From contig NW_004457442.1 in NCBI RefSeq assembly GCF_000313135.1, positions 350,736 through 414,735 on the forward strand: DNA of 64,000 nucleotides. Direction: 5' to 3'. The notes beneath the pieces are model-generated. The model did no database searches and had not been told where the DNA came from. It saw only the letters and a program-made list of their open reading frames with translations. The position numbers and the translations under genes were made by a program. Source of the DNA: Acanthamoeba castellanii str. Neff. Its lineage: Eukaryota; Discosea; Longamoebia; Acanthamoebidae. This document shows, piece by piece, positions 51,133 to 62,010 of the stretch; the first letter of the stretch is position 1, and each line of letters begins with the position of its first letter.

Positions 51133-53406
51133 CTAGAGGAGGACGTAGCCGTTGCTGGGCTTGCCGTGTAGCTGTCTCTTGGAGTAGTAGCCCTCGAGCA
51201 CCTTGTCCTTGGGCAGCTTGTGGAGCTCGCCCGTGGCCGGGTCGAGCTGGTTGACGTAGAGGAACTGGGGCTTCTCGCGCAGGAAGTCGGGCAAGCTCTT
51301 GTTGGACGATATGTCCTCGGGCTTGACGAGGTAGTGCTTCACCCGCTCGTAGGGGTCGTCGTCCACGTAGGCCACCGCGAAGAGGCCCGGGTGGTTCTCG
51401 CTGAAGCGGATCACGAACGTGCCGATCTCCTCGTTCTTCAGGATCTCCGTGCAGGCGTTCTTCGTGATGAAGCCGTAGATCAACCTGCACGACACGACAC
51501 ACGACACACGCAATACACGACGATTAGTGGTCTGGCGCGTGTAGGAAGAAGAAGAGGAAGAAGAAGAGTGTGCGTGCGTACCCGACAAACCACATGTTGG
51601 CGATGTGCCGCTTGAACCGAAGCGTCTGCACGACCTGGCCGAACCACGACCAGAACCGACCCGCTTGCTGCTGTGTGACATTGAGCTGACCGCCTGTGTA
51701 GCCGCACAACCAAGCGACGGCGACGATGAAGATGATGGCGATGAGTACATGAGAAGAGGAAGAGCACGGTGGGGGCGGCGATGGCGGTGATGATTGCGCA
51801 CCAAAGAATTTGTAGTGGATGTACTGGAACTCGCCGTGGTTGAGTCGCCGCTGGGGTCGCCCCGGGTCCTGTCTGGTGGCCTTGAGGAAATGGGTGTGCG
51901 TCACGTTGGCCAGGTGCTGCCACGGAATCTCGGTCTGGTATGATAGAACACGCACCACGTTAGTTGTGCGTGTCGTGTCGTGTCGTGTCGTGTCGCTTAC
52001 CTGGCCTCCAAAGGCTTCGAAGAGGAGCAGCTTGCCGGCGGCGTCGCACCACTGGCTCTCGTTGGTGATGACGATGATCGGGCTCGAGCCGGCGCTCTCG
52101 ATCGTGTGCGTGCCGCCGTTCTGGAGCGTGACCTGCACGGCGAACTTGAGGTAGACCATCGACATGCGCGTCGAGACGTTGAGCTTGATGTTGTGGAACG
52201 TGAGGACGCGCTTCATCGAGTCCATGGCCTGCACGTCGTTCTCGATCGGCTTCTTGTTCTTCCAGTTCTTCTCCTCGGCCACCAGGATGGCCTTGACCTT
52301 GCTGATGTTCTGAATGTTCACGTTCGAGCCCGACAGCAGCGCCAGCACGTAGTTGTCCTCCAGCGTCTTGCCCTTGAACAGCACTTGTGGCGTCGGCTGG
52401 TCCGTCAACATGAGCGCCGCGATACTGGTGTGCACGCCCGCAACGATTAGTCAACCGAGCGCGTGTGTCGTGTCGTGTCGTGCGGTGCTGCGTGTGTCGT
52501 GTCGTGTGCCGTGTGCGATGAGAGTGAAAGTGAGGGTGCTGATGATGGTGGTAGTACCAGGGAGGTGAGTGGGGGTTGAGCACGAGCTGCAGCTCCTGGC
52601 GGAAGAGTTCGATCTTCTGCTGCTGGATCTTGAGCCGCTGGAGGAGCATGCGCAGCTGGTGGAGCGCGGGCGGATCGAGGATGACCGAGCGGTGCAGGCC
52701 CTGGAGCTCCTTGAGCTCGAGCTCGATCTGCTGGTTGAGCTTCCACTGCTGCTCCTGGAGCTGCCGCACGCCCTCCTTCTGCGGCTGCAGCACGAGCTGC
52801 TGCTGTATCTGTCGGATCTGCTCGATGTGCTGGTCCTGCGTGGCGAAGAGCTGCTGGACCTGGTCGATCACCATGCGGGCCTTGGCCTGGTCCTGCGAGA
52901 TGGCGGGGAGCGGGACATGGGCGGCGGCGGGGCGGGCCTGCTGTCGGGGCTCGGCGGCGGCCTGCTGGTGGTGCTGGTGCTGTTGGCCTTGTTGTTGGAA
53001 GTGGGCCGGATCGACGGTGCGGGCGACGGCGTCTTCATCTTTAACCTGGACGGCGGGGGCCATGGCGCCATGCGCTGCCTCGGGCAGCACGAAGCCTCCA
53101 GGATTGGTGGAGCCGAGCATTCCATCGTCATCATCATCCAGGTAGTACTCGCTGGTATCGAAGGCTGGTTGCCTGTTGGTTTATTAATTGTTATAATAAT
53201 CTAAATTAAGATCTTGATAGGGGCTCACAAGAGCTCAAGATTTACTCGATTAAATCGAGGGTATTGTTAAATCAACGATTAATCGTTGTGCCCTTTTGTA
53301 CGTACTCAAGTTGGCTGTAGAGCGTATCGAGCACGTCATCTGTAAGCTCCTTCCAGAACTCATTCCCAAACTCGGGGTTCATCTCATCGAGGTCCGTCTC
53401 CTCCAT
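51133..53406 (-). CDS. STAT-family transcription factor (SH2 domain)
   Basis: Signal transducer that dimerises through SH2-phosphotyrosine contacts and binds DNA. Exon 1 is 53306-53406 ([20 protein letters not shown]) and splices to 53172 ([18 protein letters not shown]). A Gln/His/Ala-rich region follows, then a coiled coil ([40 protein letters not shown]). The DNA-binding region includes [31 protein letters not shown] and [13 protein letters not shown]. The linker has [20 protein letters not shown]. The SH2 has [20 protein letters not shown] with the phosphotyrosine-binding Arg. The end is [20 protein letters not shown] and one more Leu, with tyrosines placed for activation. Layout resembles Dictyostelium STATs. 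At least six introns. Confidence 0.9.
53245..53288. repeat. two perfect palindromes in STAT intron 1
   Basis: CTCGATTAAATCGAG (53245-53259) and CAACGATTAATCGTTG (53273-53288) lie 13 bases apart inside the intron 53173-53305. Both centre on ATTAA/ATTAAT. Confidence 0.9.
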
Positions 53407-53702
53407 GTTTAATCTGGCCACAGTTGAACTATAGCCACAAACGTGCGCAGAATGCGGATCGATTGGCACAACAAAATGCGAACCCCCCAAGCTTCGCGCG
53501 TGGGAATTTTCCTGGTAATGACCAGACTGACATTCCTGACAAATACCACACATTGCCGCAAGGCACGTGAACAAGATGGTTTACACTGTGGAGATGAAGA
53601 TGGTGATGGCTACGAGTGCAGCGAAGGCATATGTACAGTGTGCATTGATGCTGCATGTAAATGGGCTGGGGCTGAGCTTGTGGTGTCAGGGTGGCCTTGG
53701 TG

Positions 53703-54855
53703 TCAGTTGTTGAGGACAAGGCACATGGGTGGTGAGGTGATCTGGCCAGCTGATATGGAGAGCAAGATGGGCAGGCCTGAGGTGCCCATGACATTGCACC
53801 ACTGGTTGTGCAAGAGTTCACACAGCTGGCCTACCATGTGAAGGACTGCCACATGAGCTCCAGCAGCAGCTTCATTGCTACCCCTGCTTTGCCTGCACAG
53901 TCACATGTGACACAACACAACACAACAGGAAGGAGGAGATATCCTTATTGAAGCTGCTGCTGGAGGCCACTGGTTTGCACTTGATCCACTGCTTTGCCCT
54001 CTGCTCTGTGTCCTCCTCATCTTCATCTTCATCATCCACCAGATTGATCACTGTCACCATCACCTCAGACCTTGCAGCTTCTACATGTACCCACTTGCTC
54101 ATAAGCACAGTTTGTGTCATGCATGTATGTCAGTGGGCAGGCAATACCTGGAGGGTCAAGGTGGCACTGAAGCATGTTGAAGAACTTGGCCATAAGGAAC
54201 TGCACCTCAAGCTTCTTGATGAACTCACCCACAATGTAGGCAGACAGGTTGAAGCATTGGCCAGTGGTGGTTGGACCCACACCCACAGAGTGCTCAATGC
54301 CAAATGAGTCCTTCTTATTGGGTATTATTATTTCTTATGCTGCACTGCTTGACCCGTTTGTGACTGGTGTGCCTTGGGCCATAGTGGATGATACTTTGCT
54401 CACAGTCCTGAGGCGCGCCCAGTACAGCTCCAATACAATGGTGCCTGCAGCTTTGTTCTTTGTGGCAGTGTCCAGGTTTACCTCACCCTCATCAGCATCA
54501 TCACCACTGTTGTTGTCATCATGGCTGCCAGGGGCAGCAGTCTTGTGGAACACAAACAGCTGTATGCACATCATTCCCTCCACATCAGTTCCAATCCTCA
54601 TGCCTGAGATGACTGTGTCTAGAGACTTTGGCAATGAAACTTTGGGAAAAGGTGAAGGGAGATGAGGCTGTATGTCCACTGTTAAAGCTCTGAGAGAGTA
54701 CATACACAAGTCTGCTTTCTGACCATCTACCATGATGGCTACACTAAGGGGGTACCTGTTGGGAGGGGCGAGCGCAGTGAACTGGACGGAGAAGGGTGTG
54801 TCTTCGTTGGGCACCTCCATGTACCACCATCTCGCTGCGATTCCAATGCTCTGGG
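53703..54855 (-). pseudogene. copy A of clustered gene family, CpG-decayed pseudogene
   Basis: Homologous to the open gene at 57249-58766 (copy B), read on the minus strand. Recognisable in order: WYMEVPNEDTPFSVQF (B: WYVEVPDEDTPFSVQF), MVDGQKAD, GMRIGTD, NKAAGTIVLEL, FGIEHSVGVGPTTTG, VGEFIKKLEV, VINLVDDEDEDEEDTEQRAK and GLPILLSISAGQITSPPM, ending VLNN. It lacks the first exon of its relatives and has an in-frame TAA at 54335-54337. Intron positions are kept, so it arose by DNA duplication and not by retroposition. From 53624 to 54354 there is not one CpG. Changes relative to B are mostly CG to TG or CA, turning Arg to Cys, His, Gln or Trp, Val to Met and Asp to Asn. Confidence 0.9.
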
Positions 54856-54937: not shown

Positions 54938-57053
54938 TTAGTAGTAGTCCGGGTCGTAGAAGGGATACTCCATTTCGGCGTGGGGCCGGACGAGGTCTTT
55001 CTGCGCGAGGTCGTGCCACAGGTGGCAGGTCAGGGCGCACTTGGCCTTCTCCTGAAGCGAGAGGAAGGAGAACACGTGCGACACCAACTCCACGGGCATC
55101 GGGTAGGGGAACACCTACGCCACCACACCACCATACCAAACCTCATCAGTCGCTCACACCGCACGCCACCAGAAGACACGCAGACACGCACACGTCACAC
55201 ACGCGCCACACGACATAGTGACACGCACCTTGACGATGGCTCGCGGGTTGTACAACAGCGCCTGTCTTCTGTCGGCCTGGGCCATGTCGTCTTTGTCCGT
55301 CAGCTGGAAGGCCGTGGCGCGCGTGGAGAAAGCCTGCTCATTGGCAACCCCGTGGTCGATTGCCTGGCTCAGATCGTCGATGGCCCGGTCCAGGTTATCC
55401 AGGTAAAAGTGGCACAGGCCGCGATTGGCGATCGCCGTGTACTGGGGCACCACTGCTGATTGGTTTGGGATGGTTGCTTGGTCGGTTGCAATTGATGAAT
55501 ACTTAAGGCCATTGTGATTAACTTGGCGTACCAGATTGGGCCAGGCCGGCGGCGGTGGTGAAGAGCACGATGGCCTGCTCGTACTGCGAGTCATGGTACA
55601 ACGCGAGTCCCTTGCAGTTGTACAGTTCCGCCAGGGTGGGCACGGTGGTCGCAGCCGCCGGCAGCACCTTCTTCTTACCTCTCGATTGGCACTTGAGATG
55701 CGACTCGTTGAACGCTGCGGTACATTTCTGATGCACGCTCGCCTTCGTGAAGCCAGATACGTTAGTTGAGAGCACCACAGACTGACGAACAACACAACAC
55801 ACCACACGGCGCGGAGCAGAAACGACCAGCGGTGATGAATGTACCTTGCAGCGGGAGCAGTGGAGGCCCTGCTTGGTGAGTCCGAGAAGAGGCAGTCGGC
55901 ACTGTGAGCACAGCGTGGGCACGTGAAAGTCGATCAAGCGCAAACAGTGCGCCTCTATGGTGAACAAGTAGGGTAGCCCACAGGGCGTCAGCCATATTGT
56001 CTAGACTGGGACCGGTCCACGTGACGTTGGACGAGTTGGGTACCGGGGCTGGTGCGGCAAAGCCTATGATAGTGCTGGCGGCAATTCGTGTGTATCGTTG
56101 ACTGGCACTCCGCACACTCGTAGCCTACAAAGACACGGCACACGGCACACGCGACACACACCACACATCACATACGTGAGATGACGGGTGATGCGGGGGA
56201 AGATCAGGGGAGGTGGACCTTGATTGCGGAAGCCGACCAGTAACTTGCTGCAGTGGTCGCAGAACGTGGGCTTCCTAAAGGTCTGCACGCCGTACTTATG
56301 CCCAACCGTCGCCGCCGGCGAATGATTGCCTCCGTGAGCGCGCTGCAAGGGTTCCTCCTCGCTCGGCTCTTCTTCCTCTTCGGCTTCATCATCCTTGCTG
56401 TTGCCTTCTACTTCGTTGTCAGTCTTCGAGGCCAGGAGGGCGTCGATAGCGTGGGCGAAGGCCTCGGCCGCCTCGGCCCAGCGGCCCAGGCGGTCGAGCG
56501 CCAGACCCAGCACGTAGAGGGCCTCCACGCTGGCCACACTCCCGCGCCCGCCACTCAGCCCCACCGACTGCTGGGCATCGCGCACCACCTCCTCCATCTC
56601 CGCCTGCTCCACCACCTTCCTGGCCTTGTTCTCCTCTTCTTCAAGAAGTGCATCCTCTTCAACTAGTTGACCACCCCCGCCCCCCAAGTAGCGAGAAGCC
56701 GCCCCCCTCCTGATCTGGCCACGTAGCGCCCCACGCATTCCACGCATTCCAACGGTGGGCCGCGAGCGGTAGCTGGGTACGGACAGGGCGGCAAAGGTGG
56801 TCTGGGCGCGCTGGAGGTAGAGGCGCGGGTTGGCGGGGTCGGCCGCGATGGCGTTGGCGAGCACGTCGGGGTGGAGGAAGTGGTCGAGCTGTTTGCCCGC
56901 CTCGTTGGAGGCCAGCCTGCCCGCGGTGTAGGCTGCGCCCGAGGCGGCGGCGACACCGCTCACAGTCTTCTCGGCCGCGTTCACCACGATGGCACCCCCG
57001 ATGAGGGGAATCGCCAGCCACAAGGGAAGCGGTCCCATGCCTCCGCCACACAT
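54938..57053 (-). CDS. C1-C1-TPR-F-box protein
   Basis: Start 57053 (MCGGGMGPLPLWLAIPLIGG) has a hydrophobic N-terminal stretch that may be a membrane segment; an in-frame ATG at 57110 would lengthen it. An acidic segment near 56400 precedes two C1-type zinc fingers. The first has all ligands: H-x12-C-x2-C-x13-C-x2-C-x4-H-x2-C-x7-C (HKYGVQTFRKPTFCDHC onward, split by an intron at 56222). The second (HCLRLIDFHVPTLCSQC onward) is complete except that the last Cys is spaced 10 instead of 7. TPR-like helices follow (YNCKGLALYHDSQYEQAIVL, AIANRGLCHFYLDNLDRAID). The C-terminal exon is an F-box: VFPYPMPVELVSHVFSFLSL, then ALTCHLWHDLA. Stop is TAA 54938-54940. Likely an SCF substrate adaptor recruited to membranes or lipids (inference). 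Confidence 0.82.
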
Positions 57054-57248
57054 GTTGCTGTTTGGTTTGTTTGACCGCCTTTCTTGTTCTGTGAAGAATG
57101 GCAGTGGCAACGACAGAGGACTTGAAAGAAAATTTATGTTTCAAATAAGACATTATTTCTTATTTGAAACATAAATTCCGAATTCATATAATTATTGGAA
57201 GAAAAAAGCAACTCAAAAAATCGTGGTTTGCCGAAGGATTAGCTAGAG
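57054..57248. promoter_or_regulatory. divergent promoter with central 19-bp inverted repeat
   Basis: 195 bases between the C1-TPR-F-box start and the copy B start. A perfect inverted repeat (57131-57149 with 57159-57177) lies at its middle. The region is AT-rich compared with its flanks. Confidence 0.65.
57131..57177. repeat. perfect 19-bp inverted repeat, 9-base loop
   Basis: AATTTATGTTTCAAATAAG at 57131-57149 is followed by nine bases and its exact complement CTTATTTGAAACATAAATT at 57159-57177. The centre is 57154; the mid-point of the two divergent start codons is 57151. Confidence 0.97.
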
Positions 57249-58766
57249 ATGGAGAGAAGAGGAGGAGCAGCGTTCTTCGTCCGCGGTGGTGCTGGGGCGC
57301 TTGCCTTGTGCACCGAACTGCAACGTAATCCGCCCACGCCTACCCGAGCCACAGACGAGATCCAAGTCGATCTCGCCGTGCTTCTCAATGGCACCACGCC
57401 TTGCGATTGCATCTACATCTCCCAGGCTGCTGTTGAGACTCACCACGTATGCCCTCCTCATACGTGCCCCTCTTGCTAGTTTTGAGATTTTGCTGATTAT
57501 CTATCTTGCTCCCCATTGAGAAGCACAGCTGCCGACAAGACCAGGATGGTACGTGGAGGTGCCCGACGAGGACACGCCCTTCTCTGTCCAGTTCACAGTA
57601 TTCCCCCCTCCCAACTCACCCCCCCTGTGCGCCAACGTAATGGTAGATGGTCAAAAAGCGGAATCTTGTACGTCCTTTTGCCGCCTCACATGCTTGCCGT
57701 TGAGGCCTCATCATCCATTCATTCACCTTTCCCCCCTCCCCCCCAAAGATGCTGCGACAAGGATGCATGAAGTGGCCACCTCGGGCATAAGGATTGGGAC
57801 CGACGCCGCGGGAAGGAAGCTCATACAGCCGTTCATGTTCTGCAAGGCCAACCGCGAATACAACGACAACCAGAGCGATGACGATGACGGTGAAGGCGAA
57901 GACGACACCGCCACGAAGAAGAACAAGGCCGCAGGCACCATCGCGTTGGAGCTGTGCCAGACGCGCCCCGTCCTCTCAGGATCGACCACAAAGCTGATGG
58001 CCGGGTACGCGTTCACGCCGCGCAGCGTCGTGCCAGATAAGAAGGAGTCGTTCGGGATTGAGCGCTCCGTGGGCCTGGGTGCGACCACCACCGGCGACCA
58101 CTTCCGCTTGGCCAACTACACCGCGGGCGAGTTCATCGAGAAGCTCGAGGTGCGGTACCGCACGGCCAAGTTCTTCCACATGCTTCAGTGCCGCATCGAC
58201 CCCCAAGGTATTGCCCCTCGGCACCACACACCCAACACCACACATGCTGCAATGTGCTTACAACTGCATTGTAGAAGTCAAGCGGGCTGAGGGTCCGGTG
58301 GCGGTGATCGATCTGGTGGATGACGATGAAGATGAGGAGGACACGGAGCGGAGGGCAAAGAAGCGGATCAAGCTGGAACTAGCGGCCCCCAGCACGCCAG
58401 CGCTCGGGAACGACGCCACCGCCGACACCTTTTTGTGCCGCCTTGCTGCGTACGTACTCCCCACCCTGGCTTTGCCTGCATAGTCGCACACGCACACGCA
58501 CACCCCAACGCCGTTGCAGGTTGCACATGACTAACACGGCACGACACGCACGACACACATGCAGGAAGGAGGCGATGGAGATGTCTTCGCTCAAGCCGCT
58601 GCTGCTGGAGCTCATCCAGCGGAACCTCACCACGGTAGGCCAGCTGCGCGAGCTCTCGCGCGCCCAGTGGCGCGACGTCATGCGCGCCTCGGGCCTGCCC
58701 GCCTCGCTCTCCATATCGGCCGGCCAGATCGCCTCGCCGCCCGTGTGCCTCGTCCTCGACGACTGA
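57249..58766 (+). CDS. copy B of clustered gene family, with SIM-like and SUMO-site motifs
   Basis: Start MERRGGAAFFVRGGAG. Exon 1 has the family motif LQRNPPTP and CDCIYISQAAVE. Exon 2 begins at about 57533 (LPTRPGWYVEVPDEDTPFSV, then VMVDGQKAES). Exon 3 (from about 57750) has GIRIGTDAAGRKLIQPFMF, an acidic stretch, KAAGTIALEL, then GEFIEKLEVRYRTAKFF. Exon 4 has VAVIDLVDDDEDEE (a SUMO-interaction-like V-I-D-L-V plus acid run, 58304 onward), the basic patch RRAKKRIK, and IKLE (58367-58378), a psi-K-x-E sumoylation-type site. The last exon is a helical domain, LKPLLLELIQRNLTTVGQLR to CLVLDD, TGA 58764-58766. The order WVEV/VDG/F-F/GTI recalls fungal DUF7918 proteins (tentative, from memory). 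Probably nuclear (inference). Confidence 0.8.
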
Positions 58767-58939
58767 CGCAGCCACGAGGCCACCCCGACACCACAAGCGC
58801 AGCTCATCGGCGGCTTGCCAACCACACACTGTACAGAAACTAAATATAAATATAAATAACAAGATACAAGGACAAAGTACGTGTACATGATTTTTTTATA
58901 TTGATCTCATAATCAGTTTGATGTTAGCGTCGATCCTGG

Positions 58940-60413
58940 TCATTCGATGGCGATGCAGGCTGCGGGATGGCGCGGTGGTGGCAGGGAGCGGTTGGCCAGC
59001 TTCATGGCCGACTTGGCGAGCGAGGCGGGCAGACCGGCCGAACGCACGACCTCGCACCACTGCGGCCGCGTCAGCCGGCGCAGGTGCGCCACCTTCGCCA
59101 TTCCATGCCTTCGCAATTCCGCCAGCAGGCGACCCAGCGACCCCGGCTCCACGTTCTCCTTCCTGCTTGGCTTCCCCAATCAGTTCACTCAACTCACTCC
59201 AGTGCACCGGTGTGTGTGTGTGTATGTGGGTGTGTGTGTGCGTGTGTGTGTGTGTGCGTGCGTGCACGCGCGTGCGTGACTGTCGCACCTGGCCAGACGG
59301 CCGACGAAGGCCTTGACGGATGAGTGGCTGTCGAGTGCTGGCTGAGGCTCTCTCTCGGGCTTGATGGCCTGCTTGTTGTCCTCCTGGCACTCTGTGGCCG
59401 AACTGGTGGCGTCGATCAGGCTCTGGAGGTTGGCGAAGAACTTGCGCTTGCGGTACCGGAGCCGCACCTGCGCCAGGATGGACCCCGCTGGGCGGTAGGG
59501 CGTGGGACCCCACCCGTTGTCCCCTACCGCCGAGCCCAGGGCCACCTCCAGGTCGGCCGCGCCCATGGCCTCCTTCTTATCGCTCGCGCCTGGGATCGTG
59601 GGCGCTTCAGCGGGCGCCACCGCGGCTGGCGGCCGGGTGCGGTGGTCGATGACGGCAGGCAGCACGTAGAAGTGGATGGATCCCACCGGTCCCATGATGT
59701 CACGCGCGCTGCTCCTGAGTCGGGGGTCATCCACCACTTCGCCCTCCGAGGCCGATTCCTCACCACCACCGCGCGGTGCCTCCATGCGACGCAGTAGGAA
59801 GGGCCGCACAATCCCTGAGCCTCCCTCCTGCAACGTGACGCAGCCCTTCACCTCCACCGGCTCTGGCGTGCGAACAATGACTGGTCGTCGCCCACGCATG
59901 TCAAGCTTTACGCTGGTGGTTGGGGGGTGAAGGGAAAGGCGAGGGTGGTCAGGGGTCGTACTGCGGCTGGACAGGTGGCCGTCGACGAACACCACGCAAC
60001 AGAGCGGAAAGTTGCGCGGGCTGGGCGGCTCGACCGACAGTCGAACCGACAGCGGCTGGTCCTCTTCGGTGTCGTCAGGGACTTCCACGTACCAGCCCGA
60101 TGGCACATGCAGCTGGGCCACAACATGGATGTTCGTAGGAGTTTATATGTTGTCCACGCCATCCCGTGCTATGTTGTATACTGATACGTTATTGGGGGGG
60201 GGGAACTACGTGATGTAGGGCCACTGCGGCTTCAGAGATGTAGATGCTGTCGCACGGCGTGTTGTTAACGAGGACGGAGAGCGTCGCCTGAAGTCTCCTG
60301 CCGGCTGGGGGCAGGGGCGGGTTCCGCTGCAGCACGTGGGACCTCTCGAGCGCATTGTCGGGGTCAGCGGGCAGGGAGTAGGTGGGTCTCGTCGGCATCT
60401 GCTGCATCTCCAT
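58940..60413 (-). CDS. copy C of clustered gene family
   Basis: Start 60413 (MEMQQMPTRPTYSLPADPDN). Exon 1 carries the family signature LQRNPPLP and CDSIYISEAAVALHH. The next exon has LHVPSGWYVEVPDDTEEDQP and VVFVDGHLSS, then RPFLLRRME, GSIHFYVLPAV and SILAQVRLRYRKRKFFANLQ. The linker contains IKPE (59354-59365), the same psi-K-x-E position as IKLE in copy B, but no SIM-like string. It then has AFVGRLAR and the C-terminal helical domain LGRLLAELRRHGMAKVAHLR to AACIAIE, with TGA at 58940-58942. Four introns; one near 59190-59290 is TG/CA-rich. Convergent with copy B, tandem with copy D. Function unknown. Confidence 0.78.
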
Positions 60414-60547
60414 GACCACAAGCGTCCAGTGTAGAGTGCTCTCTCTTTCTCGTGCGTTTTTTTTTGTTTGTTGATTGACTTTCCACCGAAACCAAAATTC
60501 TTGGACTTTTGTCGATGTGTTCGGCCGAAGATGAAGTTTGACCTTTT

Positions 60548-62010
60548 TTATTCGTCGATGATGACGAACTCGGTGGGTGGTGGCGGGCTGGCCAGCTTCA
60601 TGGCCGACCGGGCCAGGGACACGGGCATGCCCGCCGCGTGCATGATCTCCCGCCACTGGGTGCGCGTCAAGCTCTGCAGCTGGTGCGCCGTGTACACCCC
60701 GCGGCCAGCCAGCTCGCTCAACAGCGGCTGCAGCGCTGCGGCGGGTATCTCCTCTTTCCTGTTCGTCATCAGGCCACCGTCAGCACACGCACCACCGCAC
60801 ACTTACCACCGCACACGACGCGCGCAAGGGGTAGTGGTACCGGGCGAGCCGGCACACGAAGCTGGTGAATGTGCTGGGCGCGTCCAGTTGTTCGTGTTTG
60901 ATATGACCGCTGCTTTGTGGCTCCTCTTCCTCACGCGAACCGTCCCGCGCTCCTAGGAGAGGAGAAGGTCAGCGCCAGGTTCTCTATGAAGTGCGCGTGT
61001 GCGGCGTGTGCGGTACGGGTTGGAGCTCGCTACCTCGTGACCTGATGTGGCCTCGGATGATGTCGAAGAACCGGCGGGTGCGGTAGTGAAGCTTGAGCTC
61101 GACCAGGAGCCGACCGCGCAGGAGGGCGCAGACCACCCACCGGCGGTTGGTCCGATAGGGCGTGCCCACGGTCACCGCGCGATCGACAAAGGCCGACTTC
61201 TTCTCCGGGTCCACGCTGTGCTGGACGAACGTGGCCGGGTCCTGGCTGTAGGGGCTGCGGCAGCCCCTCATCTTTCGCGGAGCCGCCTCCCACGCGCGCA
61301 GTATGATGGTGCCGACGCTTCCATCGCTGTCGGTGCGGCTGCTGCTACTACTGGCGGTCGTGGTGTCGGACTCAGCCGACGACGGGTCTGCAAACTGGGC
61401 CTTCTGCAGCTTGAAGGGCTGGACGTGGGCGTTGAGCGACCCCTGCTGCTCGCACCAGAAGCCGTGGTCCGTCCTCGGCGTCGCGTCCTTCAGTTCCCCT
61501 GTGCGTTGTGTCGTGGTGTGTGTCGTGTGTCGTGTGTCGTGTGTCGTGTGTCGTGGTGTGTCGTGAGTGCGCATTCGGCTGGGTGAGTGGGGCGAGGAGG
61601 TCGTACAGCGGCAGGCCTGCTGGCCGTCGACGAAGACCTTGCTGACGGCGGGGTAGTTGGGCAAGCTGAAGGCATGGCGCACCGAGAACTCAACGTCCTC
61701 CTCGTCTGGCACTTCTACATACCATCCGGCGGGGGTGGGCAGCTGCATCAATCAGATGCAGATCTCATCAATCCTACAAATCAATCAGTTGCCATGCGTC
61801 GACGGCTGCGCGGGAGATGTAGATGCAGTCGCACATCCTGCCGTTGATTAACACCTCAAGGGTCGCTTGTGCTTCCTCTCCCAGGCCATCGACAGCAAGC
61901 GAGGGAAGTGGAGGGTTTCGGTGGGGCACCGTGGCCCTCGTTAGCTCGTTGTCCTCCCCGTCGTGCACCATAAACGCCACCCCTTTGTTGGCATGCACAA
62001 TCTCTTCCAT
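60548..62010 (-). CDS. copy D of clustered gene family
   Basis: Start 62010 (MEEIVHANKGVAFMVHDGED). Exon 1 has HRNPPLP and CDCIYISRAAVDAW. Exon 2 has LPTPAGWYVEVPDEEDVEFS and KVFVDGQQA. Exon 3 has WCEQQGSLNAHVQPFKLQKA, a Ser-rich loop, GSVGTIILRAWEAAPRK, then VELKLHYRTRRFFDIIRGHI. The linker holds IKHE (60891-60902), again a psi-K-x-E match at the position shared by copies B and C. It then has SFVCRLAR and the C-terminal domain LQPLLSELAGRGVYTAHQLQ to EFVIIDE, stop 60548-60550. Intron 2 contains a GTGTC repeat (61500-61562). Function unknown. Confidence 0.78.
61500..61562. repeat. GTGTC-type simple repeat in intron of copy D
   Basis: Repeated TGTGTCG units fill the intron between the VDG exon and the WCEQQ exon. 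Confidence 0.85.

Follow-up and report, generated by a model that had tools for sequence, protein, structure and literature searches.

A CpG-free block in Acanthamoeba castellanii is probably a methyl-CpG deamination scar in a dead gene duplicate

Within a 64,000-base stretch of the genome of Acanthamoeba castellanii str. Neff (contig NW_004457442.1, positions 350,736 to 414,735; hereafter the window), CpG dinucleotides have almost disappeared from a single block at 53624-54768 (no strand). The depletion itself is confirmed as a real observation. The block lies in a broken copy (pseudogene A) of a nearby open gene (gene B), and we consider it likely, from sequence comparison, that it is the scar left by deamination of methylated CpGs in a silenced, dead duplicate of B. 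Three groups of results support this reading: the loss is confined to CpG, symmetric between the strands and present in A and not in B; A is structurally dead, and the same loss is seen in repeats and in a duplicated fragment of DBR1; and sister repeats have lost their CpGs independently in a genome that contains DNMT1-like exons and SRA domains.

The longest CpG-free run in the window extends over 731 bases (53624-54354), exactly as the original prediction had it, and a second run covers 351 bases (54418-54768); a further run of 430 bases consists nearly entirely of N. The only CpGs within the block are at 54355, 54414 and 54416, three up to 54768 where three or four had been claimed for 54355-54769. 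This compares with 72.9 expected from the C and G content of the block and with a minimum of 48 among 10,000 base shuffles. The observed/expected ratio (O/E) of CpG is 0.04 in the block, compared with 0.98 in gene B, 0.91 in gene C and 1.00 in gene D (approximate gene spans), and the window as a whole has a GC content of 0.58 and a CpG O/E of 0.98. When O/E was profiled in N-free windows of 300 bases, only 3 of 210 fell below 0.25 and all three were within the block. The dinucleotides expected from deamination are overrepresented, with a TG+CA O/E of 1.81 in the block versus 1.24 in gene B. The outermost 5' part of A and the bases directly outside it (54769-54833, minus strand) retain CpGs, at positions 54769, 54773, 54787, 54805 and 54833.

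Gene B (57249-58766, plus strand, with provisional exon borders) is an open paralogue and the parent of A. It has a weak match to the Pfam family DUF7918 (20.7 bits, under the Pfam cut-off of 27). Two putative divergent paralogues, gene C (58946-60414) and gene D (60550-62010), both on the minus strand and with approximate spans, were recognised by comparing translated open reading frames by eye. No Pfam match was obtained for C, for D or for the open frame of A. Pseudogene A (53671-54826, minus strand) is a 5'-truncated copy of B and lies 3 kb away from it; its homology to B (57547-58803) starts at 54826, ends at 53671 and is split by a gap into two pieces. The A/B alignment contains no counterpart of exon 1 of B, and the frame of A meets a stop at 54335, with later stops and frame changes. 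Furthermore, A carries an inner inversion (53880-53965, plus strand), in which pieces of the last intron of B and the start of its last exon lie in B's orientation; the matches (53880-53905, 53926-53940 and 53953-53965, all plus strand) are short, with E-values of 0.002 to 0.27. The missing exon and the inversion go beyond what had been described earlier. Because exon 1 is absent, the frames are broken and an inner segment is inverted, the B protein cannot be made from A, which has probably also lost its promoter.

The block coincides with the pseudogene for the most part, as had been proposed, although it starts 47 bases outside the region of homology and ends approximately 58 bases inside it. 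The proposal that it stops sharply at neighbouring promoters holds for one edge only. The left edge lies on the promoter side of an SH2-domain gene that is STAT-like by eye (51133-53406, minus strand, far end approximate), at a distance of 217 bases from its start codon (53406), whereas on the right the neighbouring gene (54940-57060, minus strand, 3' end at ~54940 and the other end approximate), in which CpG content is normal, turns its 3' end towards the block. A protein search with B returned two metagenome proteins, one 97% identical over 82% of the query and the other 65% identical over 48%. At 24 sites where B differs from the second of these, A sides with B and with the relative six times each and with neither 12 times, and the split between A and B is consequently not datable against this protein.

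The direction of the changes that removed CpGs from A was read against B alone. Over 722 aligned bases, excluding the right edge, 77 CpGs of B have a counterpart in A, of which 34 are now TG, 29 are CA, 12 are other dinucleotides and 2 are still CG. Within these aligned blocks A has no CpG that is absent from B (the CpG at 54355 falls outside them). The near-equal representation of TG and CA confirms that both strands are affected, and the five substitutions originally read from the linker exon (ATCGAT to ATCAAT, ACGGAG to ACAGAG, GCGGAG to GCAGAG, GCGGAT to GTGGAT and GCGGCC to GTGGCC) are all present in the alignment. Of the 156 CpG bases of B, 68 have undergone a transition in A, compared with 36 of 305 C/G bases outside CpG (p = 9e-14, Fisher test), the excess of CpG transitions over other changes that had been anticipated. 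Transversions affect the two classes alike (11/156 CpG bases versus 45/566 other bases, p = 0.87). The pattern is clearest in the last exon, where none of 28 CpGs of B is kept, 26 have become TG or CA and only 9 of 143 other bases have changed. The crude ratio of CpG to other rates, A against B, is 15 over the aligned blocks and 43 in this exon. Taken together, these counts support a loss in A that is CpG-specific and strand-symmetric. One stretch straddling the end of the block (B 57547-57660) counts in part against the deamination reading: 7 CpGs of B are aligned there, of which 1 is kept and 6 are TG or CA, but A also carries 3 CpGs that B lacks. Outside CpG, A has diverged from B by 18% over the aligned blocks (103/566 bases), so the date at which A would have been silenced is only loosely constrained.

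CpG stripping is not restricted to a single duplicate: the same loss is found on transposon-like and other repeats elsewhere in the assembly (38.4 Mb, 250 contigs). One exon of this assembly matches actophorin (PDB 1ahq), an A. castellanii protein, at 76 of 76 residues. We took a small sample of 17 stretches, spaced by hand (non-randomly) and some containing N, which amount to 134,654 readable bases. Islands were defined by an O/E below 0.25 in 300-base windows, a threshold set after the block was known. Six islands (L015, L019, L020, L023, L024 and L027) were detected, covering 17,820 bp of the readable bases, a share that is a rough estimate. Two are transposon-like, one is another repeat, one is a partial duplicate of DBR1, one has a second copy and one is of no identified type. 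Outside the islands, most 500-base steps in the five loci profiled are near an O/E of 1. The two transposon-like islands (L019 1001-10000, O/E 0.08; L015 1-4360, O/E 0.04) are repeats that carry DUF7869, a domain that marks transposons. Of the 44 matches to this domain in the genome, 15 have an in-frame TGA, as would be expected from change of CGA to TGA. L027 has 28 genome matches, itself included, and for L023 one further copy was found, at 84%.

A further case resembling A, of the sort that the original suggestion to look for other CpG-free duplicates had in view, is L020 (L020 861-1540, equivalent to C124:300861-301540, 680 bp). It duplicates part of the gene beside it, which encodes the lariat-debranching enzyme DBR1 (Pfam 4e-26) and to which it is 70% identical in a local alignment of 166 columns (E = 5e-16). 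In a longer but poorer alignment, none of 35 CpGs of the gene is kept and 19 are TG or CA; other changes are also common, with 29 of 148 non-CpG C/G sites changed to T/A, 25 reverse changes and 57 transversions in 379 columns. Counting A with the six sampled islands, six of seven have a related copy. Comparable loss in unrelated single-copy DNA would have spoken against the original prediction; the one candidate is the seventh island, L024, for which a genome search found no second copy. Nor did it find one for L008, a further island that entered the analysis through a methyltransferase match and lies outside the sample of six. As the search missed the true neighbouring copy of L020 in DBR1, the absence of second copies for L024 and L008 is weak evidence.

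If CpGs decay after two copies of a repeat have parted, TG in one copy is expected to be opposed by CA in the other. We counted 67 such sites over nine alignments (3,317 columns; some sites overlap within runs of TG/CA). The control pair GT/AC gave 17, and no other control exceeded 4. Their distribution is uneven: three of the nine alignments have 24, 20 and 10, and low-opposition pairs have 4 in 560 columns, 4 in 270, 2 in 301, 1 in 484 and 0 in 175. This indicates that related repeat copies lost their CpGs independently of each other. One repeat family has 59 genome matches, and all five copies that we compared are CpG-poor. Between copies C47 and C154, which have 0 and 3 CpGs left respectively, there are 15 opposed sites and 3 sites with CG against TG or CA, and the remainder of the alignment (740 of 776 columns) contains just 6 other transitions and 12 transversions (~2.4%). 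A two-lineage fit to eight of the ten pairs aligned gave a CpG rate of 71 to 246 times the rate of other transitions per C/G site, with 95% lower bounds of 27 to 64; these pairs share sequences and are non-independent, and two of them, involving the short copy C124b, run up against the limit of the fit, while the remaining six gave 71 to 141. Were the ratio 15, survival of 21-72% of CpGs would be expected in the fitted pairs. Two pairs were omitted from the fit: C154 versus C124b has 13 opposed sites, 5 other transitions and 10 transversions, and C124 versus C124b, a contrary case, has 3 opposed sites, 6 other transitions and 3 transversions. The ratio of CpG to other mutation rates in mammals is roughly 10-15. 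The repeat ratio is above this, and passive deamination alone would therefore require either inefficient repair or a slow background mutation rate.

Published methylation data for Acanthamoeba are broadly consistent with the deamination reading. According to the available passages of one study, methylation in A. castellanii Neff is mainly at CpG (1.3% of CpGs overall) and is enriched in repeats, intergenic DNA and 381 mostly silent genes; it prefers younger LINE/LTR copies, except in a divergent LTR group, and hypermethylated windows make up 3.4% of the genome (PMC12344493). Hypermethylated viral regions are described in excerpts of another (PMC12210455). Two statements in the accessible text of this literature count against the reading, namely that DNA transposons show no overall enrichment of methylation (PMC12344493) and that 5mC in Acanthamoeba is confined to transposons (PMC12695648). 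The original prediction that a duplicate was methylated and then deaminated stands insofar as the loss is CpG-specific and strand-symmetric and CpG methylation of silent DNA is reported in the portions seen of PMC12344493; the idea that this is unique to a duplicate does not. On the deamination reading, A would have been truncated, then silenced, and would then have decayed. Packed into methylated, silent chromatin, its methyl-CpGs would have deaminated passively to TpG/CpA on both strands until the process was near completion, while gene B and the neighbouring genes presumably stayed unmethylated. Methylation may have been targeted to A because it was a duplicate, but its truncation and silence serve equally well as an explanation: the related copies of six of the seven islands would favour duplication as the trigger, and the missing exon 1 and probable loss of the promoter would favour silence.

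An alternative is that an active mutator resembling repeat-induced point mutation (RIP), coupled to a methyltransferase or deaminase, detects repeated sequence and strips it of CpGs in a few generations. The near-total loss of CpGs from copies C47 and C154, which differ by only ~2.4% elsewhere, speaks for this, as do the related copies of six of the seven islands and the high rate ratio (71-246 over eight non-independent pairs, with bounds of 27-64 and two pairs at the edge of the fit). However, a low replication error rate raises the ratio without any enzyme, and the repeat ratio fits either an active CpG mutator or low replication error with passive deamination. The crude estimate for the A/B pair is only 15 over the aligned blocks, even if it reaches 43 in the last exon. 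RIP as described in the available text of PMC2621366 mutates both copies of a duplication; the five CpG-poor repeat copies are compatible with this, but in the A/B pair one copy has an O/E of 0.04 and the other of 0.98. CpG is also not the usual site of RIP in the parts consulted of PMC2621366 and PMC4352252. Classical RIP, with its preference for CpA, is rejected, as B is untouched and CpA is not preferred (A retains 36 of 53 CA dinucleotides of B and 2 of 77 CG). Overall we regard a RIP-like mutator as unlikely.

Relaxed selection is a very improbable explanation. It would hold that codon choice keeps B rich in GC and CpG and that A, once a pseudogene, drifted to mutational equilibrium without methylation, in keeping with a GC content of 0.50 in the block compared with 0.61 in gene B. 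Three of the four introns of B, taken singly, have O/E values of 0.27-0.45, each resting on 1-2 CpGs, but B introns and the spacers near A have a pooled O/E of 0.97 (57 CpGs in 1,101 bases, including 9 separator letters). Moreover, the transition bias outside CpG is mild (C to T at 36/305 sites versus T to C at 22/261), and general AT drift is rejected on these counts. That the block is CpG-poor foreign DNA, viral or transposon-derived, which brought along or picked up part of B is hardly credible and is rejected, despite the transposon-like or repeated nature of other CpG-poor islands, because the greater part of the block is collinear with B across exon and intron parts, and its genome matches (in a search that can miss relatives) are itself and three pieces of B.

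CpG loss of this kind is already known from mammalian duplicates and fungal transposons. In mammals, the accessible sections of PMC11683416 describe daughter duplicates that tend to be methylated and to lose CpG, the latter as in A, while the parent keeps its state, as a modest promoter-level trend in trios (daughter O/E lower in 33/52 human and 97/148 mouse cases); A, unlike these, shows near-total loss over a gene fragment in an otherwise undepleted window. In Microbotryum-type fungi, C to T changes at CpG in repeats are likewise ascribed to methylation followed by deamination, in transposons according to the passages available (PMC4352252), whereas the present case is an amoeba and extends to gene-fragment duplicates in gene-rich DNA. 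Neurospora-type RIP likewise changes C to T in duplicates but, in the excerpted text of PMC2621366, usually acts at CpA and on both copies, compared with CpG and one copy in the A/B pair. The repressive 5mC of A. castellanii, in the portions seen of PMC12344493 and PMC12210455, similarly involves CpG methylation of repeats and of silent and viral-derived genes; these studies concern present methylation, and CpG decay and gene-fragment duplicates are added here. In the available text of the literature on methylation, CpG, deamination and pseudogenes in Acanthamoeba, we found no account of CpGs decaying in this genus, and a search for literature joining duplicated genes, methylation, CpG depletion, pseudogenes and deamination returned none. 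Within the literature searched, the new elements are the rate ratio, the occurrence of CpG-free islands in an amoebozoan and their presence at duplicated gene fragments in gene-rich surroundings.

If the deamination reading is correct, the sequence of an amoebozoan genome by itself records past silencing. With surroundings at an O/E near 1, CpG-free islands would flag dead duplicates and old repeats, and would reveal silenced DNA that is invisible to methylation maps because no CpG is left in it. Old CpG-free repeats would also fit the preference of methylation for younger LINE/LTR copies in the accessible parts of PMC12344493. The high ratio in repeat copies would make passive and active mutation of methyl-CpG testable in this lineage. 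A broader and doubtful extension is that Acanthamoeba has a duplication-sensing, CpG-confined mutational defence, in which repeats and partial duplicates would be methylated edge to edge and would lose CpGs ~100 times faster than other C:G pairs, owing to deficient repair or to an active mutator. CpG-free islands would then form a fossil map of everything ever silenced.

A scan of the genome for DNA methyltransferase genes, as originally suggested, revealed DNMT1-like exons on contig C155 and a DNMT2-like exon on C248. SRA matches above cut-off were found on C154 and C148. From the DNMT1-like exons and SRA matches, the genome is predicted to encode CpG methylation machinery. DNMT3 was not identified in our searches of this genome; conserved key residues are reported for A. 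castellanii DNMT1 and DNMT3 in the available text of PMC12344493. A frame for a HaeIII-type cytosine methyltransferase was also detected on C215 (L005, C215:62755-66195); it is bacterial-like and lies on a 68 kb contig. Finally, a DNMT1-like remnant (L008 501-1780, equivalent to C94:879810-881089) is located within a CpG-poor island with an O/E of 0.11, and this methyltransferase gene copy has apparently undergone silencing and CpG stripping of its own.
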